In this document: positions 1 through 61,488 of the stretch, piece after piece
Position numbering within the stretch: position 1 is the stretch's first letter
Layout of the letters: each line of letters starts with the position of its first letter
Assembly (NCBI RefSeq): GCF_027942865.1
Contig: NC_134522.1
Location: forward strand, 34,915,149-34,979,148
Reading direction: 5' to 3'
Origin: Odontesthes bonariensis
Taxonomy: Eukaryota; Chordata; Actinopteri; Atheriniformes; Atherinopsidae
Length of the DNA stretch: 64,000 nucleotides
Program-made: the position numbers and the translations under genes
Notes under the pieces: model-generated
Told to the model about the DNA's origin: nothing
Databases searched by the model: none
What the model saw: only the letters and a program-made list of their open reading frames with translations

Positions 1-28908
<28,908 letters not shown>

Positions 28909-30403: not shown

Positions 30404-33400
30404 ACCCCCCCATGAGCTGTCACCTTATCGTGGTGGGGGAGTTTGCGTGCCCCAATGAGTCTGGGAACTAGGGTCACCCATGGCAAACAGATCCTAGATG
30501 AGGTACCAGACAAAGAACAGCTCATAAAACCCCTATGATGATGGACAATATTGGACACCGTGTACCCTTGCCCGGACGCGGGTCACCGGGGCCTCCCCCT
30601 GGAGCCAGGCCCAGGGGTGGGGCCCGCCGGCGAGTGCCTGGTGGCCGGGTCTGTGCCCGTGGGGCTCGGTCGGGCACAGCCCAAAGAAATTACACGGGTC
30701 CCCCTTCTGACGGGCTCACCACCCGTGGGAGGGGCCATGGGGGTCGGGTGCATTGTGAGCTGGGCGGCAGCCGAAGGCAGAGACCTTGGCGGTCTGATCC
30801 TCGTCTACTGAAGCTGGCTCTTGGGACGTGGAACGTCACCTCTCTGCTGGGGAAGGAGCCTGAGCTGGTGCGCGAGGCTGAGCGGTTCCGGCTAGATATA
30901 GTCGGACTCACCTCGACGCATGGCTTGGGCTCCGGAACCAGCCTCCTCGAGAGGGGTTGGACTCTCTTCCACTCTGGAGTTGCCCGTGGTAAGAGGCGTA
31001 GAGCAGGTGTGGGCATACTTATTGCCCCCCGGCTATGCGCCTGTACATTGGGGTTTACCCCGGTGAGCGAGAGGGTAGCCTCCCTCCGCCTTAGGGTGGG
31101 GGGACGGGTCCTGACTGTTGTTTGTGCTTATGCACCGAACGGCAGTTCAGAGTACCCACCCTTTTTGGAGTCCCTGGAGGAGGCACTGGAGAGTGCTCCT
31201 CCGGGAGACTCCCTCGTCCTGCTGGGGGACTTCAATGCTCACGTGGGCAATGACAGTGAGACCTGGAGGGGCGTGATTGGGAGGAACGGCCCCCCTGATC
31301 TGAATCAGAGTGGTGTTTTGTTATTGGACTTCTGTGCTCGTCACGGACTGTCCATAACGAACACCATGTTCGGGCATAAGGGTGTCCATAAGTGCACTTG
31401 GCACCAGGACACCCTAGGCCGCAGCTCGATGACCGACTTTGTGGTCGTATCGTCGGACTTGCGGCCGTATGTCCTGAAGAGAGGGGCAGAGCTGTCAACT
31501 GATCACCACCTGGTGGTGAGTTAGCTCCGCTGGTGGGGGAGGAAGCCGGTCAGACCTGGCAGGCCCAAACGTATTGTGAGGGTCTGTTGGGAACGGCTGG
31601 TGGAATCCCCTGTAAGGAGGAGTTTCAACTCCCACCTCCGGCAGAGCTTCAACCATGTCCCGGCGGAGGTGGGGGACATTGAGCCCGAATGGGCCATGTT
31701 CCGTGCCTCCATTGTTGAGGTGGCCGACCGGAGCTGTGGCCGTAAGGTGGTCGGTGCCTGTCGTGGCGGCAACCCCCGACCCCGCTGGTGGACACCAGTG
31801 GTGAGGGAAGCCATCAAGCTGAAGAAGGAGTCCTATCGGGCCTTTTTGGCCAGTGGGACTCTGGAAGCAGCTGATGGGTACCGACAGGCCAAGCGGAACG
31901 CGGCCTCGGCGGTTGCTGAGGCAAAAACTCGGGCTTGGGAGGAGTTCGGGGAGGCCATGGAGAATGATTTCCGGACGGCCTCGAGGAGTCGGGGGGGGAG
32001 CGGTGCACGGTCAACACCGTGTATGGTGAGGGCGGGGCTCTGCTGACCTCAACTAGGGACGTCGTGAGTCAGTGGGGGGAATACTTCGAGGGCCTCCTCA
32101 ATCCTACCGACACGCCTTCCGATGAGGAAGCAGAGTTGGGGAGCTCGGACGTGGGGCCTCCCATTTCTGGGGCTGAGGTTGCCGAGGTGGTCAAAAAACT
32201 CCTCGGTGGCAACCGGGGTGGATGAGGTCCGTCCTGAGTTCCTCAAGGCTCTGGATGTTGTAGGGCTGTCTTGGTTGACACGCCTCTGCAGCATCGCGTG
32301 GACATCGGGGGCAGTGCCTTTGGACAGGCAGATCGGGGTGGTGGTCCCTGTTGCGGCGAGTGAGTGACAATGCTGAGTGCCCGCGCCTGCTTCTGACCGT
32401 TCTCCCCTGCACGCAGCGGGGAGCGCGCACGTATGCCGACACCGGCAACCGCTCGCCCGCAGGTGAAGCGGATGACTAATTATTCCCTGAGCTGAGGGAG
32501 CAGCGGGCTCTCTTTGTGTGTGTGTGTCGAAAGAACGGACGCTTTCCACGAGACAGGCAAGGAAAAGGACTTAAAAAAAACTCCTAAAGGACTGCCGGTG
32601 AGCTTGTGGAGAAAAAAAAAAAAAAGCTTGCTTCTGGTCTTAGGAGGTGGATGCCCGTCAGATTATTTGTTTATTATTTGTTACTGGGTCACTTGTTTAA
32701 GTTATTCATATCGTATCATGTGTGTGACCCAGGATATTTTAATTACGGAGAGTGATGATCCAATGTATGGACTGTTAAAAAGAAAAAAGAAATAAATAAA
32801 TACTTAAGTTAAAAAAGGATGTATTAAAAATAGATTTAGTTAATTTAACAGACGAAATGCCTCTAAAACCATGCACTGAGTATACACTGTAAAAAACTGT
32901 GCTAACATTAGTCCCTTTTATTGATATATTTATTAATGTTAGATGGCTAAATTTATCTGTGTACACTGAAGTAATGTTTATATATATATATATATCTAGC
33001 AATACTTTGCTTTTCTATGGTAATAATTTGTGTTTGATTTGTTAAAGGTTTTTCACCTGTGCCAGGGCCTGTGCCAAAACCTGTGCCAAAAGAAAAATAA
33101 AGAAAAAGGATAAAGCACTGAGTGAAGTCCTGCGTCTAGTTTTCAGGAGTGTGAGACCCTTCCCTTTTCAAGTGTGGGAAAGCTTGACCTGTTAAAATCA
33201 CTTGACAGTCCCCCTCTTTAAAAAGGGGGACCGGAGGGTGTGTTCCAACTATAGGGGGATCACACTCCTCAGCCTCCCTGGTAAGGTCTATTCAGGGGTA
33301 CTGGAGAGGAGAATCCGCCGGATAGTCGAATCTCGGATTCAGGAGGTGCAGTGTGGTTTTCGTCCTGGCCGTGGAACAGTGGACCAGCTCTATCCCCTCG

Positions 33401-33580
33401 GCAGGATCCTGGAGGGTGCATGGGAGTTCGCCCAACCGGTCTACATGTGTTTTGTGGACTTGGAGAAGGCGTTCAACCATGTCCCTCGGGGACTCTTGTG
33501 GGGGGTGCTCCGGGAGTATGGAGTGCCGGACTCCTTGATATGGGCTGTTCGGTCTCTGTATGACCGGTGTCAGATGAAAG
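30404..33580 (+). pseudogene. 5'-complete, damaged RTE/Rex3-like LINE interrupted by a solo LTR
   Basis: Plus-strand non-LTR retrotransposon. The 5' leader CCATGAGCTGTCACCTTATC leads to a Gly/Arg-rich start and an AP-endonuclease domain from about 30820: [61 protein letters not shown] at 31522 breaks the frame, a deletion and shift fall near 31990, and another shift near 32220. RT motifs start with GVDEVRPEFLKALDVVGLSW and VPLDRQIGVVV; a solo LTR (32349-33207) then intervenes, and RT resumes with LFKKGDRRVCSNYRGITLLS, GFRPGRGTVDQLYPLGRILE and CFVDLEKAFNHVPRGLLWGV. Similarity stops at about 33575, before the catalytic YxDD-type box, so the 3' half is missing. Inactive. Confidence 0.85.
32349..33207. 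mobile_element. Solo LTR, 859 bp, inserted in the LINE reverse transcriptase
   Basis: Begins TGTTGCGGCG and ends CACTTGACA, with TG..CA termini. Flanked by a perfect 5-bp duplication GTCCC (32344-32348, 33208-33212). Removing the LTR and one GTCCC makes the flanking LINE frame continuous across the site, which fixes the boundaries. Contains AATAAA at 33096-33101, a GC-rich 5' part and a tandem CCTGTGCCAAAA. No internal coding region, so an LTR-LTR recombination remnant of an unclassified LTR retroelement. Confidence 0.85.
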
Positions 33581-34465
33581 ATTATTCAGTGTGCACACTG
33601 ATGACAGTTCTGGTTCAGTGAAGGGACACTCTTCTCTGTGCCAGGACCATGAAATCTTCTACAATGCATCTGCCTCTACCAAACAGTGGCAGGAAAACAT
33701 TTTTTCTGCTATTCACAGGAAGGGATATTTATCAAATCGCCTCAATTAGCCCACAAACTGAGAAACAGCACAAAAATTGGCTTTAAATTCGGGTAAAATC
33801 TGATAATCATTTCAATGTTTAATCATATTTTGAATAACAAAGAAAAACATGACAAACAACAGCAAACAGAGCAAGAATCAGTTATCCTGTAGCACAAACT
33901 GTACAGTGAAAATGTCACCGAGCTAAAAGCAATTCTTAAGGCAAAAGTATCAACTCAGCACTGTACAAATCCCAGCAGATTTGACCAGTTTGCGTCACAT
34001 AGCAAAAACACAGGATAAAGCCACTCAGTTCAGAGTTGGACATCTAAAGATCAAAAAGTAAGACGGCTCAATGATGAACAGATGTTTTTAAGGAAAGGAA
34101 AAGTTTAGTATTTAAGTCGTTTTTTTGCTGACGCATTACTAATGAAACGTGAGAAACTCATTCGGCCATTAGAGCCTAACAACATGCACAGAATCCTCCG
34201 AAAACGGAAATACCAACCATAACTAAAACACATATACCTTTTCTAATATCATAATGAACATGTTGAAAAGCATTTCAAGTCAAATTGATCATCTAGATCT
34301 TTATTTTGAATTAATCTCACAATAAAACTCTGAGGCAACAGTGAAAGTATCAACTGCCCTTATTGCTACCTTTTTAGGAATGAAATCATCCATAAATGAG
34401 GTTATCTTTATTTACAGCGAATGCTACATGCAAGATGTGTTGGATACCTTGTTTTTCCCACAAAT
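33581..34465. other. Intergenic, nothing recognised
   Basis: AT-rich sequence between the LINE relic and the next repeat; only short ORFs without similarity. Confidence 0.5.
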
Positions 34466-35836: not shown

Positions 35837-36165
35837 CTAAATGACTTCATGCAAAGTCATGCTCTGACTCTCTGAGGGGAGGAGGTGTGCATGGTGGCTG
35901 ATGGCCTGCTCCATGGAGCTCTTAAAGGCCTGGTAGGAGGAGGGGACAGGCAGGAGGAGGACTTTGGACTCTGGTTTGCTCTGAGGGAAAAGACCCTCAT
36001 CTCTCCACTCTACATCTTCCTCCTCCTCTTTGGATCCCAGTTGAGAGGAGGTGGCATGTTGGAGGAAGACAATGGAGGGATCAGGGAGGAAGCCAACTGC
36101 TGGCAGCTCCTCAGCTCCAGTGGCGAAGCGAAGGATGTCCTGCAGGGAGATGGAGCTTCTTCCAA
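35837..36165 (-). CDS. g2e3: g2e3 exon 17 (terminal, HECT-like C-lobe)
   Basis: Encodes [40 protein letters not shown], an acidic insert [18 protein letters not shown], then [20 protein letters not shown] and a final MTLHEVI before TAG at 35839-35837. Acceptor TCTCCTCAG. Where active HECT ligases have TCFNxLxLP this copy reads ESKVLLLPV, with no Cys. Confidence 0.94.
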
Positions 36166-39100
36166 CTGAGGAGAGGGAAGGGGAGTTCAGTACTGCATGA
36201 AAAGCCCAACAGCATCGAATACTACATTTTAAGTTACAGTCCTTCATGTAGATACTTGCACACATAAGGTGGAAAGAAGATTTATTCCTATGAGCCCATA
36301 AGAAGTTATTTTAATTCACACAGAAATGACTTTCCTTAAAGTCCCATCTACAAAACCTCAAAACAGTCGAGTCAAACAGGGCAAAAACAGAGAAATCTCA
36401 CTCTGAGCCCTTCAAGCAGATGCAGTGGACTCTGGTCTCAACCCTCTCTTTGAGAAAAGCCTTTTTACTGAAGAACGGGACTTTTTCTCAGCACAGCAAC
36501 TTGAAAGAGGATACCCACTCACGTGTGATTGTCATCTTTTTACTGATGCACCACCACTCCTATCCATCTTTATTCCATCTTTACTTCCTTTTTTCCTGTT
36601 TCCCACAACGCCTGCATCTTAACTGAACGAATTAGACATGTGAACATTGCATGTTTGTCCAAATCTAATCTGAATATCTTCCTTTGCTCAAGTCTTTCTT
36701 GAAAAACAATACGAGTAAAACAATCAATTTGAATCAACACAAGATAAAAGGAACATTTGACCTTCACACTCCAGCAGGAAGTGTCTCCAGAAGGTGACGA
36801 CGGCCATCTCTTGGTTCAGTTTCTCCTCCTGCTCAGAAAAGCCTACGGTGAAGAGCTGACCCAGAGTCTGAGCTGTGAGACCATCTGCAGCTTTGCAGAA
36901 AACGCTGCAGAAGACTGACGGGAAGAGCTGAACCTGGAGCAGATCAGAGTTGGATTTTTGCAGTTTGAATTTCCATCAGTTACAAAAACAGAATACAAAA
37001 ACTTCCTGTTGCCGAGGCAGATGCTGGCTCTTATTACAGCCTGCTGGCTTTGACATTATTCAGTCCACAGTTAAAAATGCTTTAGATTGGGGCAGAAAAT
37101 TCCCAGTAAATATCTGAGAAATTTCAGGAAACTTTAATTCTGGAATTTTGGAAATATTCCAAATTGGATTATTTATTTATAAACAATGACTTTCCATCAG
37201 CATTAGCTGGTGGGCACCTCCACCTCCACACATTGAATGGCATTTTACTGTTGAATAAGATAAACAGCTGTATCGATAGATAGCTAAAGAAACAGAAGAA
37301 GATTTTATACATCAGTTGTAAAATATTTTACAATGAAATTTAGTATGTTTACAGAAAACCATCGAGCAGGAGGCAGAAGTAAGAGCATCACATTTGAGGT
37401 AGCTAGCACCATGATAAGATGGCCTCTTTAATGAAACGATGCTAGCTAGCTTACATTCAGTATATTTGGTTTACCAGTTAGCTAGCTCATGTATGAATTA
37501 TTGTGATTTAATAGTTGCTCGTTAAACTTTGACACCATAGATCAAATAAATCTACCTCCTAATATCACCAAAACTTTGCGCTCAAATGTGTGACATCAAT
37601 AGTCTGTCTGTGCTCAAAGAGTAGCTTTAGTAGTCTAAAAAAAATCCTCCGTGCATGTGAGGGAGGAATGACCAACGCATGTGTAGGTGTGGCCTCCACA
37701 GCCCTGCAGTCAGTAGTGTGCTGTGATCACACAATAACAGATACCCGACTGTATTTGCATCAAATCTGATCGTTTTAGCCAAGATTATGCTAAAATAGCT
37801 TTCATATATACTTCATTTAAGTTCTAAATTTTCAGTTAATTCTCTTAAATTCCCATGAAAAGTTTCCAACTTTGAAAATTCCCAGAATTTTGCAACACAA
37901 CTACAAATCTTTCAAAACTTTACACGAACATCCATTTTCTTATTAAACCACAGCTCTACACTTGTCTTGTACCCAAAGAAATAATCCACTCTTGCATTGT
38001 ATGCTGCTCTGAGAAACAGCAACAATACTATTTACCTGAAAACAATGTAACTGACACATGTCTAACAGATGGATGAATTCATTGTTACTTTGAGGCTTCG
38101 TAGGTGTAAAATCCTGTCTTCATCTTTACAGTAGCTTTGTGCTGAAAAAACTCACCTGGTCAAATACACCCAAAGTCTGCAGACCCTCACGGAATCTGCA
38201 GGAGGACAAAAACAACCAAAGCACAGTTATTACAGCTTTGGCCCTTTTATTCACATTTCAGCTTAAAAAAATGCAGTTAGAGAAGTTTGAGAAATGATGA
38301 AAAAGGCACCAAACATCAGTGTTTGCAGCTGATTTTGTATTATTATTCTTTTACATTCAAGGTATCTTTATCCTTGTGTTTTTATGACAAGTCTAACATT
38401 TCATGTAATAACCTTGAGATACTTTTCCAATGGGTGAAACATATAGATTCCACGGTCTTGGAGGATGATCATTCAGCTGTTTTCGATTACAGAAAGTAAG
38501 AAAAATCACTGATATGACACAAAAGAGTAGAATATTCTCGCTTTCCAAAACATACCTAAAACAGTTTTTATAACATTTTGCAGGCCCATAAGCAGTCCTA
38601 TCAAAAGGCCACTTCCATGCACTGCAATCCTCTCATGTAGTGTACCTTTGTTAACTGGGCATTTCTATTGGTTTATCTCACCTCTGCAGTGGCAGCTGCA
38701 TCCTGGTGATCATGGTGAAGCCGACTACATCATCCACCAGAGCCTCTCTCTCCTCCAGGCTACTGACTGGTCTGTTGCAGCCAGCCAGCTCCAGGTACTC
38801 CCAGCACGCTGCCATGACTTCTCTCAGATCATCTAAAGACTCTGCCTTTGCAATCTGAAACAATGATCCGTTTAGTTCAGTTTTACATTTACAGAGGTGT
38901 GAAATGCTGCTGTCATCAGCTGTGGGGTGCATAAGGCAAGCCTGCAGGCCTGGGACTTTGTCCTGTGCTCACCCGAGTGACTTGGTGGGTGAAGTGTGTT
39001 TCAGGTGTCATGTGTTGGACAGTGAGTGGGCAGTTGGCTGGGTAGTTGAACAGACACTGATAGAGAGCGTGGGAGAAGAAGCCAACAGGTGGGCCGCCAT

Positions 39101-42100
39101 GAACCAAAGAGAGAGCCAGCAGACAGCCAATGTCAAAGTACAGGTCATCCCGAAGAGCTGAACGACACACACACACACACACACTTTATGCACACCTCAT
39201 AAGGTGGGATGCTGGAGTTTAAGTAACCTGGAATACCCAGTAGGATGCTTGTCTATATATGAATGTAAAGCCAATCTGACAGCCAAGCAGAGGCTCATTG
39301 GTTACATGACATGTTCCTAATAAATGATCTCAATCACTTCTTATTACCCTGGGAATCCAGTGCCAGGTTTCTGGACCCACATGGACCTTCAAACGCCACA
39401 GAGTCCTGGATCTGCTGCACCAGCAGCTTCAAAAAGTACTGCTTGGCTGTGTTCGGGTCCAGGAGGGTGCTGGGAAATGCAGTTTGATGCTGCTCATCTA
39501 TGAACCTGGACAAAGATGGGAAACAGTTAAAAGGAGAACAGGCATGGAAAGTATCCAAGAGAAAAATGTTCAGAAAGAGGAACCGAGGTGAATATTTTAT
39601 CTACTGACCTAATGGACAGAGTGTGGGTGGGGTTGAAGTCGGCCCTCCTGACCAGCTCCAGACCAGCTGACAGAGCCTGATCCCCATTCACTTCCACCTG
39701 GACACTGACAGGATGAAGCTGAGGGACTAAAGACTGAAGCAGCTCCTCAGGTGATCCAGATTTTACAGCTAAAGATGGTCTGAAAGAGACGGAGACAAAG
39801 TTCCACTCACAAAAACTTTTACAGGAGGGAACATGGCTGAGCTGTGCTATGTTTGCATACCTTTTACAGGAGGGAACATGGCTGAGCTGTGCTATGTTTG
39901 CATACCTTTTACAGGAGGGAACATGGCTGAGCTGTGCTATGTTTGCATACCTTTTACAGGAGGGAACATGGCTGAGCTGTGCTATGTTTGCATACCTTTT
40001 ACAGGAGGGACCATGGCTGAGCTGTGCTATGTTTGCATACCTTTTACAGGAGGGAACATGGCTGAGCTGTGCTATGTTTGCATACCTTTTACAGATGGGA
40101 ACATGGCTGAGCTGTGCTATGTTTGCATACCTTTTACAGGAGGGAACATGGCTGAACTGTGCTATGTTTGCATACCTTTTACAGGAGGGAACATGGCTGA
40201 GCTGTGCTATGTTTGCATACCTTTTACAGGAGGGAACATGGCTGAGCTGTGCTATGTTTGCATACCTTTTACAGGAGGGAACATGGCTGAGCTGTGCTAT
40301 GTTTGCATACCTTTTACAGGAGAGAACATGGCCGAGCTGTGTTATGTTTGCATACCTTTTACAGATGGGAACATGGCTGAGCTGTGCTATGTTTGCATAC
40401 CTTTTACAGGTGGGAACATGGCTGAGCTGTGCTATGTTTGCATACTTTTTACAGATGGGAACATGACTGAGCTGTGCTATGTTTGCATACCTTTTACAGG
40501 AGGGAACATGACTGAGCTGTGCTATGTTTGCATACCTTTTACAGATGGGAACATGGCTGAGCTGTGCTATGTTTGCATACCTTTTACAGGAGGGAACATG
40601 GCTGAGCTGTGCTATGTTTGCATACCTTTTACAGGAGGGAACATGGCTGAGCTGTGCTATGTTTGCATACCTTTTACAGGAGGGAACATGGCTGAGCTGT
40701 GCTATGTTTGCATACCTTTTACAGATGGGAACATGGCTGAGCTGTGCTATGTTTGCATACCTTTTACAGGAGGGAACATGGCTGAGCTGTGCTATGTTTG
40801 CATACCTTTTACAGGAGGGAACATGGCTGAGCTGTGCTATGTTTGCATACCTTTTACAGGAGGGAACATGGCTGAGCTGTGCTATGTTTGCATACCTTTT
40901 ACAGGAGGGAACATGGCTGAGCTGTGCTATGTTTGCATACCTTTTACAGGTGGGAACATGGCTGAACTGTGCTATGTTTGCATACCTTTTACAGGAGGGA
41001 ACATGGCTGAGCTGTGCTATGTTTGCATACCTTTTACAGGAGGGAACATGGCTGAGCTGTGCTATGTTTGCATACCTTTTACAGATGGGAACATGGCTGA
41101 GCTGTGCTATGTTTGCATACCTTTTACAGGAGGGAACATGGCTGAGCTGTGCTATGTTTGCATACCTTTTACAGGTGGGAACATGGCTGAACAGTGCTAT
41201 GTTTGCATACCTTTTACAGGAGAGAACATGGCCGAGCTGTGCTATGTTTGCATACCTTTTACAGATGGGAACATGGCTGAGCTGTGCTATGTTTGCATAC
41301 ATTTTACAGGTGGGAACATGGCTGAGCTGTGCTATGTTTGCATACCTTTTACAGGAGGGAACATGGCTGAGCTGTGCTATGTTTGCATACCTTTTACAGA
41401 TGGGAACATGGCTGAGCTGTGCTATGTTTGCATACCTTTTACAGATGGGAACATGGCTGAGCTGTGCTATGTTTGCATACCTTTTACAGGAGGGAACATG
41501 GCTGAGCTGTGCTATGTTTGCATACCTTTTACAGGAGGGAACATGGCTGAGCTGTGCTATGTTTGCATACCTTTTACAGATGGGAACATGGCTGAGCTGT
41601 GCTATGTTTGCATACCTTTTACAGGAGGGAACATGGCTGAGCTGTGCTATGTTTGCATACCTTTTACAGATGGGAACATGGCTGAGCTGTGCTATGTTTG
41701 CATACCTTTTACAGGTGGGAACATGGCTGAGCTGTGCTATGTTTGCATACCTTTTACAGGAGGGAACATGGCTGAGCTGTGCTATGTTTGCATACCTTTT
41801 ACAGATGGGAACATGGCCGAGCTGTGCTATGTTTGCATATCTTTTACAGGTGGGAACATGGCTGAGCTGTGCTATGTTTGCATACCTTTTACAGATGGGA
41901 ACATGGCTGAGCTGTGCTATGTTTGCATACCTTTTACAGGAGGGAACATGGCTGAGCTGTGCTATGTTTGCATACCTTTTACAGATGGGAACATGGCCGA
42001 GCTGTGCTATGTTTGCATACCTTTTACAGGAGGGAACATGGCTGAGCTGTGCTATGTTTGCATACCTTTTACAGATGGGAACATGGCTGAGCTGTGCTAT

Positions 42101-45100
42101 GTTTGCATACCTTTTACAGGTGGGAACATGGCTGAGCTGTGCTATGTTTGCATACCTTTTACAGGAGGGAACATGGCTGAGCTGTGCTATGTTTGCATAC
42201 CTTTTACAGGTGACTGAGGAATGAATGGGGGAGAGATGCCGTTTGGACAGTAGGCTTCTCCGCTGACCTCTCTGAGGTGACGTAACCAGGCATGCTGGAG
42301 CAGACAAAACATACAGTTCACAGCAGCTGCAGTTAGTTTAAATGCTCATCCCTTTGTTAAGCATAGATGAGACTAAGTTGAGTGGCTCAGACCTCTCCCG
42401 TCGGTAGCCTTTGTGCAGTCGCTGCAGGCCCAGTCTCTGGTGTCCACCTTCAGCCCCGAACACTTTCTGTGAGTGCCCCTGGATCCACACAGCCGGCATC
42501 GAATCACCTCGAACCAACTTATTCAAGCACAAACACAGAAACATCAGATGCATTCATTTCTGAAAGAAGTGCTTCTGCTGCACACATCTGAACAACCTGA
42601 AAATGACATGTCTGCTTGCAGTCCAAGCTGTCTGAAGAATTTGTGCCGTCAAGATGAATTTACTCACTGAACTGTAAGTTTTATTCCCATTTGATTACCC
42701 TCACACACCTCTCATAAAACATATCATCCCAAGCAATCTACAATGGGATTTAGTCAGATAAACTAAGCATCAACACCCAAGTGTGTGCCAGGAGTGTCTG
42801 AAAGCCCGGGAGGAATGCTCAGCAGCTAACCAAAACAAAGTGAGCTGGTTCAGCATGGCCAGCTGTGGTCCACAAAAAGCTAGATTGCAAAAAAAAAAAA
42901 AAAAAAAAAAAGAAGCTGAAAAGCTAAATTTGTCATATTGTCAAATTTATGGAGTATTTCCCTTCCCAGTGTTAATTCTACCACTTTTGCAGAGGAATAG
43001 CAGATTTCCCCTCCAGAGACCGTGCAGACCGAGCAGTCCCTGCTTCCGAGCAGCAAACACCGTAACAGGCGCGGCTGTCGGCAGCAGGCAGTGATACGAA
43101 GGGAGAGAAAATAGGGCCAAGCGATTGTGAGATCTAACTTTTTCCCAGAGAACGATTTTGTGACGCAAATGTATTACTCTTTTGAATGCATATTGTTTTG
43201 AGAAGCCAAACGCTTTATTTTTTAAACCCCAGCCAACTAGCTGGACTACCTTCATCAACACCAAAACGAGGCTGGAACTCTGCTCACAGGACGCAGCAGG
43301 GGGTAAGAAGATGTTCATAAACAATATTGCTAATATAGGATGTCATACAGCTTCATGTCAAAAGAGGCGAACTATCCCTTTAAGGTAATCTCACATATCA
43401 GGTTATTTCTTTCAAAAGCTGACTCACAAAAAGTTTAGCGTGCTTTTAACTATTCTCTCCTCAGCCATTGCTTTACACTATAATCATGGATCGGTCAGCA
43501 GAATTCTGTTCTTGTTCTTTCATCACTCGGTTCATTTTGTTGTTTCATCCTAACCTAGTTACATTGTGCTGCTCTCCTCTAAAGCCATAAATGAACCGTA
43601 ACTACAACTTGAGTACACTTCAGGGTAACTGAGCATTGGCTTCTCCTTTAAGAGCAAATGACTGACTATGATTTGCAAGTCATACCCGCTCTTGGCGGAG
43701 TGTGTGCGTCCACTGTCGCAGAGGCACGTGAGAGAGTCACAGCAGTTGTGAACCTCCAGAAGCTCTGAATATGCGTTTGCCTCCAACTCCCATGAGGCAT
43801 CTCTGCAAAGAAAAAAGAATCCAGTGTTAGCATCTCCAGCTCAGCGTGAGAACTGATATCATGACATAAGGAGGCAGCTTTCATCTTTTTTGAACAAAAC
43901 AATGCATGTGATGTGTTCTGGGATAATGGTGGAGTGCCCTTAATGTTTCCTGATTATTGTTTTAAGGACAGAAAACACTGGACGTGTGTATATTTGGGTT
44001 TATATCTACAGCAGTCTTTAACTGGATAGATTAGAATCTAACAATTTCCTTTCCAGCTGCTTGTTCCTGGTGTGAAAACTGGATGGGAAGAGACAGATTT
44101 GGTGCTGAATGGTTGTGGTACCTCTCCGGGATGTATATCCCCATCCTGAGCATCTCCTCCTGGAAGTTTTCTTTGTTGTTACAGAGAGTACATCTGAAGA
44201 AGAAGAGGCCTGCGCTGTGAGCCTGACGCTGACACAAACACATAAAAATACAAGAAGGAAGTCATGGACACTGTCCTGTATCTGCAGATTTTTACATTTT
44301 AAAACACAAGCTTCCCTTACAGAAAGGGTGCTACGGTCTTATTTGCTCTCCATTTCCTATCAAACTAATGCAAAATGTCCCGATTGAAGATGCAAATCAA
44401 CAAATAAAATTGGGGTAAATTGCACATATATACTACCTGCACACAGTCTCTGTGGAACCAGCTGGTGTGGCAAGAAGGACACTTGAGGACAGAGTAGGAC
44501 AAAACAGGGTCGATGGAGTCCAAACAAACAGAACAAGACTGAGGCAGACTGATGTCTGCAGCCACACACAGAGACTGAGAAGGACTGTGATCCGGACAGT
44601 AAGACCTGGACAAGCAGATAAAGAGGTTAAGGTCACGTAGTTGTATCTGTTGTATATCCATAGTTTCTGTTACTTTAGAAGCAGAGAAGTACTATGATCT
44701 AACAATTCAATTTCCAGCTGACAGGACTGGGTCTCATGTTTGGCAGGATACTCTTGTCTGCACAAATAAATCCCACCTGAGCCTCTCATTCCAGGGAATG
44801 TATAGCAGTTTTTACTCTTTGGGACCCCAAATGCACCATAGAAGCCTTTTCAACATTTATCCATTACTTTCAGCTGGATGTTTCGTTTTTTCAGCAGTTT
44901 TCCAGAGTTTCCGACATTGATCCAAATTTTCGTACTTTTTTTTAAAAAAAATTTTTTTTATCTATTGCATTTACCTAGTCATTCATTCATTGGAATACAC
45001 ACACACACACACGTATGTATGCGCATATAAATATATAATCACATAAAATAATACATACATATAATAATACAATAAATATAAAGTATACAAATGTAGAATC

Positions 45101-48100
45101 TTAATAAATCAATTATTACAGTATGAGGTGTTTGGGTTCGAACAGTGTTTGTGCAAACGTTCAATCAGAAATTGTATTTTTTGCATTAGTTCAGTTCAGT
45201 TCACTCTGACCATGCCACCATGTCTTTAGAGAAAACGCTCTTGTGGAGGCACTCACGGGAACAATCCAGTAAACTGTGAGAGGAACATCTGTTTCCGCCC
45301 ACAGGGGAAGTGAACCATCTTCCTGCAGCTTCGGACATTACAGCCAACACATGCTCCCTTCTTTTTACAGCCGCCACATGTCTGAAACACACAATAAGCC
45401 AGGCTGATCACTGAATGAGGACTCTGCCAAGGCCAGTTCTGTATTCTGCACCTTCCTTCACCCAAGCCCCATATATCCTTTTAAACTGTATTTTAGACAT
45501 CAAGACATGGATGGCAGACAATTTCTTTCAGCTCAACCGGGACAAACCAGAAGTATTGGTCATCGGTCCTGAGGCACACAAAGAGGAACTTTGCCTGGAT
45601 GGAGAAACAAAAAGACACACAAGAGCCTGTACTCCTCCTGAAAATCCCGTCCATTCGTTTTCTTCTCGACTAAAGATGGCAGGTTTTCAGACCCCTTTTG
45701 TTTGAAGCTCTTGACAAATCTTGCCATTTTTGGTGTGACAGAGAGCTCAGTTGGACTAATGATCATAAAGAACAGTGTAACAAGGTAAAAAAAGAATGCG
45801 CTCACCAGTCGAGCCGACCTGCGGCTCTCCCGTTTGATGTCGTCAACCAGGAAACCAAAGACGCCTTCCTCTTCTTCTCCTCGCTGGTAAACGCCACAAG
45901 ATGTTAACTGATACAACACACAAATTCATTGCATTAGCACACATTCTTGACATTAAGTAACATTATATGGAATATATTAGTGTTAAGCTATGAATGTTGA
46001 CTCCAACAAAGAGTCCACGTGAAATTCTCCCACTTCTGCGTTTACAGGAAATCTGGAAATGTGCAGAGGTGAATAAGGCCGTATTGTCCGTTTCTTGGGT
46101 ACTAAAATGAGTTTAAAGATTACAGTACTTTAATTTATTCATTTATATTTATATGATTTATTATTATTTATTATTTAACGTGAGCTCACTAGAACCGTGA
46201 GATGAGACGCTCAGGAAGGAAATGAATCACAGACAGGTATGCCAGTATGAGGGGGGTATGAAAGGGTCTGCTGACTGCAGGGCATCAAATACCTTTTACT
46301 GAAAAATGCATTCAACTTTCTCTGTGACATCCACCACATATGTTTAATTAGCCCAAACGTTCAGTTTGATCATATTTATGTTTACAAATGGGAAAGGAAG
46401 GTCTATTTTTGCTTCAACGTTCAATCTGGCATGTGAACTATATGTACGATCAACAGAAGACACAGCTTTTTCCCCTGAGGGGAGGAGCTTCTATTTCTAT
46501 TCTGAAGTGAATTTGAAGGTACTGTGCCACTGTCAGAAATCTGTACATTTTACAAGATGTGTTTTCCAATCCTTGGAGATGGAAACATATTGTTTTTCTT
46601 TTCTTTTCAATACAAAGTATATTTTCTTGGCTTTTGTTAGGTTACACTTTAGGTTAAACAATAAGGAAAATGAGTTAAATGTATTAATTTCCCCCCATTT
46701 TTTTCTAAAATAAAGCAAAAACTAGTTTTAACAATTTCTTTGTCATTTATTTTGTTTGGTATTTTAATGAAGGAAACCAAATTCTTTTTTAGTAAATCTA
46801 AAATTGAGTCACATTTTTAGATCACATCGCCCGGTCCTCCTGCCGACTCACACATTTTTGATAAGATTCACCAAACAGACCTGTTAGTAAGCTCAGACTC
46901 TCAGGAGCTGTATCCTCAGTTTTCAACCTGGTTTGATGATGGCGAATGAGGATTAAGCCTACTGTTATTTTTAATTATTATTAGTTACAGGCAGTACAAA
47001 CTCACTTTATCATTCAGTTAGTTACGTTATTCCTTATTTCTGTCATTGCTTCTGCACTGTGACATCTCTTGAATGAGTGCGAGAGGTTGTCTCACTGTGC
47101 AGGGTTGCGTTTTGAAGTGCAGTCTTCAAAGAAAATTTCTAGACAGCACTGCTTAAGTCCTGTTACTAAGAGGCAGGGCTGTTTCATAACTTATACCTTT
47201 ATACCTAGGTATCTGTCTGCAGTGCTCTGAGACTCCACAGATGGACCGGCAGACATGCAATCCTCCAAAAAGCTAACAATGTACAGGCTTCTGTGATGAT
47301 ACCATGTGTTGAAAGTAAGCTTGAGCCTTCAAGACAACCACCAGCAACAACAAAGAGGACGAAATGCCAAAAACCGTAAAAAAGAAAGAAGCAAAGGAGA
47401 GAAACAATGGCCACTGTTGAGCTTCCTAATCTTAGCACTCAGTTTCACTCCTTCACAAAGCAGATCTTTGTCCTCTTTGACCTCTTTTTTTTTTCTACAG
47501 CAGAGCAACACCAACAGCAGCACCAGCACAGCTAAAAACTGCAAACAACACAACGGCTGCCCCCAAGTGGCAGCAAAACACCATCACATCCAGAGGTTTG
47601 TTTGCAAGATGTGTACTAATAAAGCTCGTTACGACCCATATGTGTGGTGGTGGTTCTTGAAAAAAGGAATCATTTTCAGATTAGAAATAAACTTCAAGTG
47701 TGGGTATAGCTAGGCTGTTTTTATTGTGACATCGAACATGTTCAAGTTTCTCATCTGTTGAGTAATATAGTGCCACCAGAACCACAGAGTCAGGGTGGAG
47801 AAGCAGCTGCTGCACAGCAATGCTTATAGAAAACATTTCAAGCAAAAAACGTTTTTTTCATTACAAATGAAAACTGTCAAAGTCATCACACAAATGCCGT
47901 CTTCCTGATGTCACTTCGGAGTATGGTGGTGTCCGATGACCCCTTATTTATAAAGTTAAGACTTTGTGAGAGCAGAGCTCCAACCACGCAATACTTTCAA
48001 ATGTGCTGCTTTTTCATTTCACAAGTTTCACCATTTCTGACAACAAAAATAGGTGAATGAGAGCAGTGTTCTTGGGAATTCAGCCATATTAAAATAAGTC

Positions 48101-48447
48101 TATGTGAACACAGTGGGACAAGCGAAGAGATGCAAAGGGCTGGAAAAAGCAGGACTCTGGTTGGAACTTACCAGTTCACTGAAAGGAAATGATCAAGCAG
48201 GAGAGAAACCAGATTGCACAAGAACAACAGTAAGCATGGATATCTTCACAGTGGGTTTCTGGATCTATAATGCAACACCAAAGTCTGTAAACAAGCTGAT
48301 CTGTGATCTTTGTACAGCTGAAAAACAGTCTATTTTCAAAGCTGTTTGCAGATAAAAGTGTTTTTCCTGAATCTGTAATGTGTGGTATTTTCAGTACACC
48401 ACAGAGAAACAGAAAAGCCCAGACAGTGTGTGTGGTTAAGTTTGTTC

Positions 48448-48508
<61 letters not shown>

Positions 48509-51500
48509 CTTTATTAATCCAGAGGGAAATTTAAGAATATTTCATGCATATTGTGATTCATGTACAGCTTCTAAAACTATTCTTGTGGTGTCAGGGCACT
48601 ATTTTCTCACTAATGACGCCTGCAGTGAATGCGTCACGCCTGGGGCAATTTTTCAAAAGGGTGGTTTCTTAAATCTTTTCTTTCAATCCAGTATGATTTT
48701 GTCATAAAATTTCTCACAACACGTGCAGACCCACGACTAACATAAATGTATTTTTGATCTTCAAGATTGAGTTAAAAACATAATATGTGTGACCAGCCTT
48801 TGGTCATTTACACTTTGTCATTTAGGCTGCTGTCCTAAATGGAAACGGGCTGCGTGCGAGTTAAAAACAGTACTTTTTTTTTCTGTTTGATAGTTTAAAT
48901 ACATATTTGAGTTAATCAGTTTCCCAACCTATCCAGCTGCTTAAAACACTTACATTTACCTTGTATGACACATGTAGATAGAAAAAAGATTTTAATATAC
49001 TTTTAGGAGTCCCTATATTCTTGTGACAAGTGTGAACACAATGTATTATTGAAAAAAAGAAGAAAAACTCTCCACAGATAAACAAACAAAGAAAGAACTC
49101 ACACAGACTTACCAAACAGAAGTAGTGGACGGACAGCTTGTGCTCTTTAACTGTAACCTTCTCCCCAAACATGGCTGGGTCATCATCACTGATCCTGCAC
49201 AGAACACAGCCTGGAAACACAAAAACAGGCTTTTATTTTCCTCTGTGTCACATCGTTGCATCAACCAAAGTCGAGATGGTCTCTTTAGCCTTGCATTGTG
49301 TCTGTTCTTACTTTGCTAGTTCAGGCATTTCAAGCTAATGCATCATGAACATAAAATAATGAGTTACATTGTGGGAGTTCCAGAGATGCTGAAGCAGCAC
49401 AGGGTCTTACATTTAGACACAGACACAGCATGGTATTATCACAACACCATGTTCTTCACACACATGTTGCACAGCATCTCAGATGGTCATGCAAGTGTTT
49501 CTTTGCCTTCCGTGGGATCATTTTCCAGCTGGACTTGCAGGTGCAGCATGGTATGGAGTTAGCACTGCGTTAGCGCTTCGCTGAGCTTTGCAGGCACACA
49601 TTTACCGGTTGCAGTTCTCTGCTCCCATTTGGGAATAATGTCAAAAACATGTTGAGCTCCCAGAGAGCCACATTAACCGACACCAACCGGGAACTGTGAA
49701 CCGGCTTTTAGACGCACTTCACTACTGACTGGTCACTGCAGTGAGCTATGTGGTCATGCCATCAAAAGCATATCTTTCACATCTTCACCATGGGAAGGGG
49801 CACTCTAAAGATATTTTAACACCTCAGCTCAGGACATAGACAGGTCAAGTCCTACAGAGTGACCTTCAGTCTCTTCATTTTCATAATGTGGAGAGTAGTT
49901 ACTCTAAACTACTCTTTGAGTCCAACAACAGTTATTTCAGGCAGAGTTTGAGCTGGGTGGGAAGCACCACAAGGTCTTTTCCATCGGCTTGAATAATGCA
50001 GTCAGCCTGTGGACTCTATCCACCATCTCCGTCCTCAGTGCTCAATCAGTGCTAATCCAGCTAACTCCACCATTGTTGGATTGAGAAGCTTGAGGATTGG
50101 ATGTACTACACAGTTAGCAGGAAGTCATTTAGAAACTAGATCCATCGACATGTTCTTTTCATATCCAACTTAATAGTGTCTATACTAATACGAATAAACT
50201 GCAGATGTCAGAACTAGTGTAGTTTCGACAGAGCTCCAAAGGGCGAATATTATGGATAAGGAGCCCACTATTTCACATTTTAAACATTCTGCATATGCCA
50301 ACACACCAGAGCGCTCTGCACAGGATGGTTATAATCTTTTTATCGTCCCATTTCTCCACTTAAATACAGCAGGGCCCCCTACTGTGTTTACATCAGCTGA
50401 TAATCTAAGCAGCATAGAAGTGTGTGTTCATCACTCACAACCCTCGGGGATACTGGATGTGTCAGGAGCCTGCAACCGCCTGGTCTTCGTCTTCATGCTT
50501 GTATTAATCAAACCTGTTGGATCATGAGGACAGTGAGCCATGGTCAGATTTATTAAGCTTTGACCCAACAGAATCCTCATTACAAAGTCTTTAACCAACA
50601 ACATACTGCGTAAGTCATAAAGAAACAAAACAGAAAAAGCACCATTAGGGCCGCCTGTAGTCAAGAAATGATCCCCAACCAGGCATGGCAGGTAAGTGTC
50701 CAGGTGCCTGCAGTATGATGGAAGTTCAACATAACAGCTTTCTTTCTGCCATCTGTCTGAAATAACACTAACAATAGACACAGTGTTTGTCATGGTGCTG
50801 GTAATAAACTTGATAAGTCATCCAGCTTTTTTGCTTCTGGATATGTACTGGTTTGCGTAAGTAGAGCCAGATGACCACCACAGACAACGTATGTTAAAGT
50901 GATAAAATGACCTATTGCTGAGTGAAGACAGAGGAGACGGCTCCCTTTGTTCTTTTCGGTTTAAGTGCCTCCTTTGATACTGTCGATCTGCATTGTTTAG
51001 AGTCCTTGGTTGATATTAAGACTTGACTCTTAAGTTTATTAGTCTCATATCTCTCTAATAGAATTTTTTTTTCAAGCTGAATCATTTTTACCTCCTAAAC
51101 AGCGTAGCCCAGCTGACTTGTGATGTACCACAGGGCTCAGTCCTTAGCCCCCTCTCTATTCTCCATTTACATGTTACCTCTTGGCCAGCTTATTCAAGGC
51201 CATAATGTTCATTAGTAGTTTTTATATGAAGGACACTCAGTTGAACATGCTAATAAAATCCACCATTCCCAGCATTAATCTCACAGCTGGTATTTCTAAC
51301 ATGAAATCATGGATGGCTGAAACTATCCTGAACTCAATGACGACAGGTCAGGGGACACTCTGCTTTGAATATCACCTATTTCAGGTCATCCATCAGTCTG
51401 TCATATGGCTTCTATGTTAAAGAGATTTGATTATTCAAATAACAATTACCTCATTTATTGTGTTGTGTCAAATTAGTTTCTACATTTCATTACACAATTA

Positions 51501-55621: not shown

Positions 55622-55763
55622 GATATTGTATATTTCTGATTTCTTCTTGTGTGAAAATGTCTGCCTAAAACGGCTCAGCTGTCCCAGCTCATGTTGTAGG
55701 TTGTGTGGAAGTGCAGATGAGCCCATCCTGTCCTGCTTGTCCTGTCCTGGAGCTCCTGACATG

Positions 55764-56222
55764 GCTGTGCAGCAGGAACATGTATACAACGCATTCTGCT
55801 CCTGGCTGTGCAGCAGGAACATGTATACAACGCATTCTGCTCCTGGCTGTGCAGCAGGAACATGTATACAACGCATTCTGCTCCTGGCTGTGCAGCAGGA
55901 ACATGTATACAATGCATTCTGCTCCTGGCTGTGCAGCAGGAACATGTATACAACGCATTCTGCTCCTGGCTGTGCAGCAGGAACATGTATACAACGCATT
56001 CTGCTCCTGGCTGTGCAGCAGGAACATGTATACAACGCATTCTGCTCCTGGCTGTGCAGCAGGAACATGTATACAACGCATTCTGCTCCTGGCTGTGCAG
56101 CAGGAACATGTATACAACGCATTCTGCTCCTGGCTGTGCAGCAGGAACATGTATACAACGCATTCTGCTCCTGGCTGTGCAGCAGGAACATGTATACAAC
56201 GCATTCTGCTCCTGGCTGTGCA
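55764..56222. repeat. 41-bp minisatellite, 11 copies (EHD intron 1)
   Basis: Unit GCTGTGCAGCAGGAACATGT + ATACAACGCATTCTGCTCCTG, nearly identical copies; one has AATGC for AACGC. 41 is not a multiple of 3 and the unit has no stop in any register, so all six frames are open. The ORFs are artefacts. Confidence 0.96.
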
Positions 56223-56291
56223 GGTGGAGCAAAGAAAAAGCTGCACCATGAAGTCAGGTTCAACACAATATTTTTGGTGTGGTGGGATCAT

Positions 56292-60180: not shown

Positions 60181-60189
60181 TCAGTTTGT

Positions 60190-61488
60190 AGGGGACACTG
60201 CAGTGTGGAGTGGACACTGCAGAGTGTAGTGGACACTGCAGAGTGTAGTGGACACTGCAGAGTGTAGGGGACACTGCAGAGTGTAGGGGACACTGCAGAG
60301 TGTAGTGGACACTGCAGAGTGTAGTGGACACTGCAGAGTGTAGGGGACACTGCAGAGTGTAGGGGACACTGCAGAGTGTAGTGGACACTGCAGAGTGTAG
60401 GGGACACTGCAGAGTGTAGTGGACACTGCAGAGTGTAGGGGACACTGCAGAATGTAGGGGACACTGCAGAGTGTAGGGGACACTGCAGAGTGTAGGGGAC
60501 ACTGCAGTGTGGAGTGGACACTGCAGAGTGTAGTGGACACTGCAGAGTGTAGTGGACACTGCAGAGTGTAGGGGACACTGCAGAGTGGAGTGGACACTGC
60601 AGAGTGTAGGGGACACTGCAGAGTGTAGGGGACACTGCAGAGTGTAGGGGACACTGCAGAGTGGAGTGGACACTGCAGAGTGGAGTGGACACTGCAGAGT
60701 GTAGGGGACACTGCAGAGTGTAGTGGACACTGCAGAGTGTAGGGGACACTGCAGAGTGTAGGGGACACTGCAGAGTGTAGTGGACACTGCAGAGTGTAGG
60801 GGACACTGCAGAGTGTAGGGGACACTGCAGAGTGTAGTGGACACTGCAGAGTGTAGGGGACACTGCAGAGTGTAGGGGACACTGCAGAGTGTAGTGGACA
60901 CTGCAGAGTGTAGGGGACACTGCAGTGTGGAGTGGACACTGCAGAGTGGAGTGGACACTGCAGAGTGTAGGGGACACTGCAGAGTGGAGTGGACACTGCA
61001 GAGTGTAGGGGACACTGCAGAGTGTAGTGGACACTGCAGAGTGTAGTGGACACTGCAGAGTGTAGGGGACACTGCAGAGTGGAGTGGACACTGCAGAGTG
61101 GAGTGGACACTGCAGAGTGTAGTGGACACTGCAGAGTGTAGGGGACACTGCAGAGTGTAGTGGACACTGCAGAGTGTAGGGGACACTGCAGAGTGTAGGG
61201 GACACTGCAGAGTGTAGGGGACACTGCAGAGTGGAGTGGACACTGCAGAGTGTAGTGGACACTGCAGAGTGGAGTGGACACTGCAGAGTGTAGGGGACAC
61301 TGCAGAGTGGAGTGGACACTGCAGAGTGTAGGGGACACTGCAGAGTGGAGTGGACACTGCAGAGTGTAGGGGACACTGCAGAGTGGAGTGGACACTGCAG
61401 AGTGTAGTGGACACTGCAGAGTGTAGTGGACACTGCAGAGTGTAGGGGACACTGCAGTGTGTAGTGGACACTGCAGAGTGTAGGGGAC
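60190..61488. repeat. 19-bp minisatellite, ~68 copies (EHD intron 1)
   Basis: Unit GGACACTGCAGAGTGTAG[G/T]; common variants are GAGTGGAGT and ACTGCAGTGTGGAGT. Every unit holds CTGCAG within an imperfect palindrome ACACTGCAGAGTGT. Variants are interspersed. No stop on the minus strand, giving three long spurious frames (TLCSV-, LQCPLHSAVS-like). Confidence 0.96.

Follow-up and report, generated by a model that had tools for sequence, protein, structure and literature searches.

A 45-bp minisatellite at an exon edge of silverside g2e3 carries some fifty copies of a 5′ splice site

Repeats that carry splice sites

Turri, Cuin and Porter reportedly described, in 1995 (Nucleic Acids Res 23:1854), a minisatellite with multiple splice donor sites in the human gene IFI6 (6-16/G1P3). 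Downstream repeat units of IFI6 serve as donors and give rise to three mRNA species, as stated in PMC4526556, and the study of this splice-donor minisatellite is cited in PMC2572611 and PMC2915984. An array of this kind was found in g2e3, a gene on the minus strand of the 64-kb stretch of Odontesthes bonariensis DNA analysed here (the window), where a 45-bp minisatellite begins with the last bases of an exon and nearly every unit repeats the 5′ splice site of that exon. The two loci are alike in that minisatellite units provide multiple splice donors. They differ in that the g2e3 array has a unit of 45 nt in ~53 copies, lies in an unrelated gene of a fish and has downstream donors whose use is putative. 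In IFI6 the unit measures 12 nt and contributes 4 residues.

The human polyubiquitin gene UBC contains a tandem array of dual-specific AGGT splice sites with variable inclusion of units (Duan et al. 2024, PMC10809524). UBC and g2e3 have in common AGGT-bounded tandem units, a unit length that is a multiple of three and isoforms that can, or in g2e3 could, differ by whole units; AGGT stands at a constant position in 50 of the 53 g2e3 units. The units of UBC, however, encode domains (9 ubiquitins), and the sites between them serve as 3′ as well as 5′ splice sites, whereas the g2e3 units are mostly intron and show no coding constraint, the changes among them (10 nonsynonymous, 2 synonymous) being as expected under neutrality. 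In human duplicated genes, internal tandem repeats at exon-intron boundaries alter splicing (De Grassi and Ciccarelli 2009, PMC2812944). Like the g2e3 array, these are edge minisatellites; they change splicing mostly in frame and lengthen low-complexity regions between domains or amino-acid repeats, but the reported outcome at the edge is new introns, whereas in g2e3 copies of a pre-existing donor spread into the intron that follows it.

No paper linking G2E3 with a minisatellite was found in the literature, alternative donors searched together with tandem repeats gave nothing, and a search on teleost minisatellites at splice sites gave none that, going by the listing, looked like the g2e3 case. 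An earlier interpretation of the same DNA (the sequence-only reading) had known of no described example in this gene, but the kind had already been described in IFI6. The g2e3 array belongs to that known kind and is notable for its 45-bp unit, its ~53 copies and its likely recurrence in other fish. It offers a natural experiment on spliceosome choice among dozens of identical, evenly spaced and frame-neutral 5′ splice sites, in which position, transcription order and exon length are separable because the site is identical in all but three units.

The edge of exon 10 and its copies

Spliced reading of the gene in 15 exons gave a PHD/HECT-type protein that continues through a CKR/PSL junction (the slash marks an exon edge here and below) at the end of exon 10. 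The predicted protein shares 93% identity over 99% with Leuresthes tenuis G2E3 (P0001), the closest named protein among the matches listed, and it matches PF13771 (E 2.7e-18, extended PHD region) and PF00632 (E 5.2e-8, HECT), the combination of extended PHD region and HECT-like domain by which G2E3 was recognised. Coordinates are given in Table 1.

The array displayed 53.2 copies with 96% matches, 0% indels and a score of 4412 in Tandem Repeats Finder (TRF). Its unit 1 straddles the exon/intron edge, CCTGTAAAAG/GTATGC, and the array thus overlaps the junction with the exon end as its first unit. In the exon register there are 53 full units, with first bases from 42210 to 39870, each repeating 10 exon bases and 35 intron bases, and a partial 54th in which the donor is lost. 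TRF and the unit-by-unit count bear out what the sequence-only reading had claimed, namely that the exon 10 donor is the first copy of a ~53-fold 45-bp repeat and that nearly every unit repeats ~10 exon and ~35 intron bases. Its further claim that the array fills intron 10 holds for most of the intron, but the array proper ends at 39816 and positions 39815 to 39780 form the rest. The donor GT is kept in 52 of the 53 units, the exception being unit 9 (AT), and AAAAG/GTATGC is exact in 50 (unit 1 counted), the G at −1 being absent from units 21 and 40. These 50 sites are identical to one another, and the dozens of near-equivalent donors proposed earlier are indeed present. A 301-base query of the exon and first units, searched by a method that passes over very common words, matched a single place in the 945-Mb assembly, where 15 overlapping matches all fell within 39840-42300 of the window.

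In a position-weight score that used human donor frequencies, the array donor reached 8.0 bits and ranked sixth of the 14 donors scored in g2e3 (range 3.0 to 12.4). As high a score was found for 13 of the 687 other GTs in g2e3 outside the array, real donors included, and by this measure the array donor is usable.

Table 1. Features of the g2e3 locus in window coordinates, and related proteins with an insert at the same junction
Feature	Position	Strand	Basis or remark
g2e3 gene as read, 15 exons	35837..49210	−	5′ end, upstream of 49210, outside the reading
Exon 10 of the sequence-only reading (8th exon read), 94 nt, ending ...SSVTCK-AG	42201..42294	−	spliced reading and ortholog alignment
Following exon, acceptor side starting at 39779	39609..39779	−	one match in the assembly by DNA search
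Exonic part of unit 1, the 10 bases CCTGTAAAAG at the exon end	42201..42210	−	
45-bp minisatellite, 53.2 copies, unit form CCTGTAAAAG/GTATGC...	39816..42210	−	
GT of the first 5′ splice site	42199..42200	−	ortholog-supported
Unit 9, GT to AT, donor lost	41839..41840	−	
GT of the last intact donor (unit 53)	39859..39860	−	would leave an 81-nt intron
Intron remainder with pyrimidine tract and 3′ splice site CTCTTTCAG	39780..39815	−	open in frame
936-codon stop-to-stop open frame over the exon, whole intron and next exon	39527..42337	−	
Insert carriers: P0013 Siniperca, P0025 Acanthopagrus, P0081 Sparus, P0053 Acanthochromis, P0063 Amphiprion, P0074			pattern and alignment

The intron measures 2421 nt, a multiple of three, with 807 open codons in the exon frame. 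All 53 units are open in the frame imposed by the upstream exons, as is the 36-base remainder of the intron, and since period and intron length are both stop-free multiples of three, any donor, or none, would keep the frame. The sequence-only reading was correct in that the period is a multiple of three, that the unit is free of stops and that the repeat frame of 15 codons per unit is the one set by the upstream exons, but as evidence for coding this is weak. Shuffled 45-mers of the same composition were open in a given frame in 47% of 20000 trials and a third of all lengths are divisible by three, so an open in-frame unit can be expected fairly often by chance. The 53 units depart from the consensus in 12 distinct ways, of which 10 are nonsynonymous, 2 are synonymous and none is a stop, where neutrality predicts proportions of ~0.73, 0.24 and 0.03. 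The array is without visible coding constraint and its changes fit neutrality, so it gives no sign that a protein repeat has been selected for. The donor is lost through one of the two synonymous changes (unit 9), and two of the nonsynonymous ones (units 21 and 40) remove the −1 G.

A coding array without an intron was rejected as the main reading despite the 936-codon frame, as the closest orthologs have the plain CKR/PSL junction and the units show no coding constraint. The complement of the array (39773-42217, plus strand) is also open, over 814 codons, since 3 of the 6 frames of the unit are free of stops; this antisense frame is a warning against taking long open frames in arrays for genes.

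Any added residues would enter where the sequence-only reading had placed them, between the third PHD and the HECT-like region, the third PHD match (to PHF7 structures) ending at query residue 277 or 278 and the HECT match beginning at residue 415. In a structure prediction of the Leuresthes protein with 31 proteins, the linker (residues 292-354) had a predicted local distance difference test (pLDDT) value below 50, and likewise residues 96-281, which include most of the PHD region, so the prediction proves little about the linker.

Inserts in related fish and the choice of donor

The set of relatives held 123 g2e3-like proteins, made up of the 120 listed of 430 matches, one from a search with a many-unit query and two others, and an insert was counted where KR occurred a second time beyond the exon end. 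By this pattern and by alignment, a repeat-like unit of 14-17 residues with a second KR was found at this very junction in 6 of the 123 percomorph proteins, as in the SCKR-YTNLTRLSSV-SCKR of Siniperca. P0074, of 756 aa, has two clear units and a diverged third and is ~82% identical to both damselfish proteins (Acanthochromis and Amphiprion); it is encoded on a contig of 2438 bases against the 13 kb that the gene spans here, and the contig is therefore presumably spliced RNA, or a retrocopy. The two sea bream proteins (Acanthopagrus and Sparus) have T, not Y, after the first CKR, which would fit a lost first GT and a constitutive downstream donor.

The similarity of the silverside unit peptide to eight insert peptides exceeds chance expectation. 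In the joint test, 62 of 20000 shuffles reached the best score of this peptide and 36 of 20000 its mean score, and of 250 further AGGT sites in the window that are open, none reached its score against the eight. In single tests of 5000 shuffles each, the score was reached by 0 for Siniperca, 48 for the second copy of Sparus, 126 for Acanthochromis and 350 for Acanthopagrus. These inserts in other fish speak indirectly for the usability of downstream donors. Siniperca and Sparus belong to Eupercaria, Acanthochromis and Leuresthes to Ovalentaria, and on the simplest reading the edge would have been duplicated already in their common ancestor, or repeatedly; judged from these proteins, such duplication is probably recurrent and not unique to this silverside.

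The interpretation judged probable, with no great confidence, is that unit 1 is the dominant donor, that some splicing leaks to the next few donors and that the array is probably polymorphic. The minisatellite, with a 5′ splice site in nearly every unit, would have arisen when the edge between exon 10 and intron 10 was duplicated in tandem, and the units would have been copied and homogenised without visible selection at the protein level. The spliceosome would mostly pick unit 1 and so yield the conserved CKR/PSL junction and the 94-nt exon; Leuresthes, Menidia and Melanotaenia all show the unit-1 junction. A small fraction of transcripts would be spliced from one of the few donors that follow, the linker ahead of the HECT region gaining 15 residues with every further unit, and the remaining ~50 donors would be ordinary intron or decoys. 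With donor n the exon would measure 94+45(n−1) nt, up to 2434 nt for the most distal; distal donors would make exons far beyond the 40-329 nt read in this gene, and the first units may be favoured for that reason. From the DNA, we infer that leakage to downstream donors may occur in this silverside.

Several results weigh against such leakage. The pairing energy of the array donor with U1, −5.7 kcal/mol, is on the weak side, as among 12 other g2e3 donors (−4.1 to −10.5 kcal/mol) 9 are stronger, 1 is equal and 2 are weaker. The insert is absent by pattern from 117 of the 123 proteins, including those of the closest relatives, the 93% identical Leuresthes protein among them with its plain junction; some of the 117 do not span the junction. 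Taken singly, several inserts did no better than shuffles, of which 1062 and 1120 of 5000 reached the score for P0074, 1439 for the first copy of Sparus and 2898 for Amphiprion, and two cichlid read-through peptides (421 and 5000 of 5000) were omitted from the eight-peptide test. Moreover, the inserts had been chosen by eye before any test was run, and the relatives do not count as independent cases. In the named records the inserts are annotation models, and several other models show unrelated read-through at or near the junction, so models of this sort can be wrong and are not by themselves proof of splicing. Among four clusters with an 'lgn' source, the insert was found in P0074 only.

A silent intronic minisatellite, in which the 42201 donor alone is used and the copies are ignored, is possible but on the doubtful side. 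It agrees with the plain junction of the closest relatives, with units that show no coding constraint and with an in-frame openness that is not improbable by chance, but 50 of the 53 units (unit 1 counted) have the donor of unit 1 unchanged, some relatives have a second unit in their proteins, and the human IFI6 minisatellite does employ downstream units as donors. Splicing by intron definition, with the unit 53 donor paired with the 3′ splice site, an intron of 81 nt and a protein of ~52 units (780 residues), is improbable. Array and intron are open in frame throughout and the gene has short introns (98, 103 and 118 nt, in a range of 98-3205 nt), but an exon of 2434 nt would be needed where the other exons as read have 40-329 nt, and no many-unit relative was found among the 51 proteins matched by the 893-aa many-unit query, none of which matched over >10% of it (candidates 0.55-1.75 times its length). 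Bidirectional use of AG/GT as in UBC, by which units would be removed in 45-nt multiples or the intron stepwise, is more improbable still: the AGGT motif, described as dual-specific for UBC, occurs in 50 of the 53 units, but as a 3′ splice site the unit would end in TGTAAAAG, which by eye, unscored, looks weak (A before AG, purines nearby). An assembly artefact, be it a wrong copy number or an array born of misassembly, is the least credible, for although there is a single assembly only, its 187 contigs for 945 Mb suggest long reads, and 53 in-register units of 15 interspersed types are unlikely to have been invented, even if the exact number may be wrong.

A wider proposal is tentative and, taken whole, unlikely. 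The exon 10 edge would be a long-standing hot spot for duplication of the donor in percomorphs (Ovalentaria and Eupercaria), with unit number drifting by lineage to ~53 in this silverside and some lineages (sea breams) losing the first donor and absorbing the unit, and array polymorphism and splice choice would together set the linker length of a conserved ubiquitin ligase. If the inserts of the relatives are real, intermediate stages with one, two and perhaps three units exist at this edge and would document how an intron becomes coding through repeated copies of its donor.

Other features of the gene and the window

The g2e3 exon at 42517 (minus strand) has an apparently unusual acceptor ending in AAG (gcttgaataag/TTGG), on which frame and orthologs agree. 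Three of the proteins had no match in NCBIfam.

The region is rich in arrays. A 24-bp minisatellite at 2614-3719 (45.8 copies, unit length a multiple of three) has CAG/GTGGGG in its consensus unit on the plus strand, and an acceptor-like CTCTTTTCTCAG stands shortly upstream of it; as a second splice-donor case it was rejected, as no exon could be tied to the array. Further minisatellites were found at 60187-61488 (19 bp, 68.5 copies) and 55762-56223 (41 bp, 11.3 copies). The assignment of the neighbouring gene as scfd1-like was a guess that was not confirmed. On the plus strand, 30502-33621 contains pieces resembling a non-long-terminal-repeat retrotransposon, with matches to endonuclease (PF14529, PF03372) and reverse transcriptase (PF00078) families.

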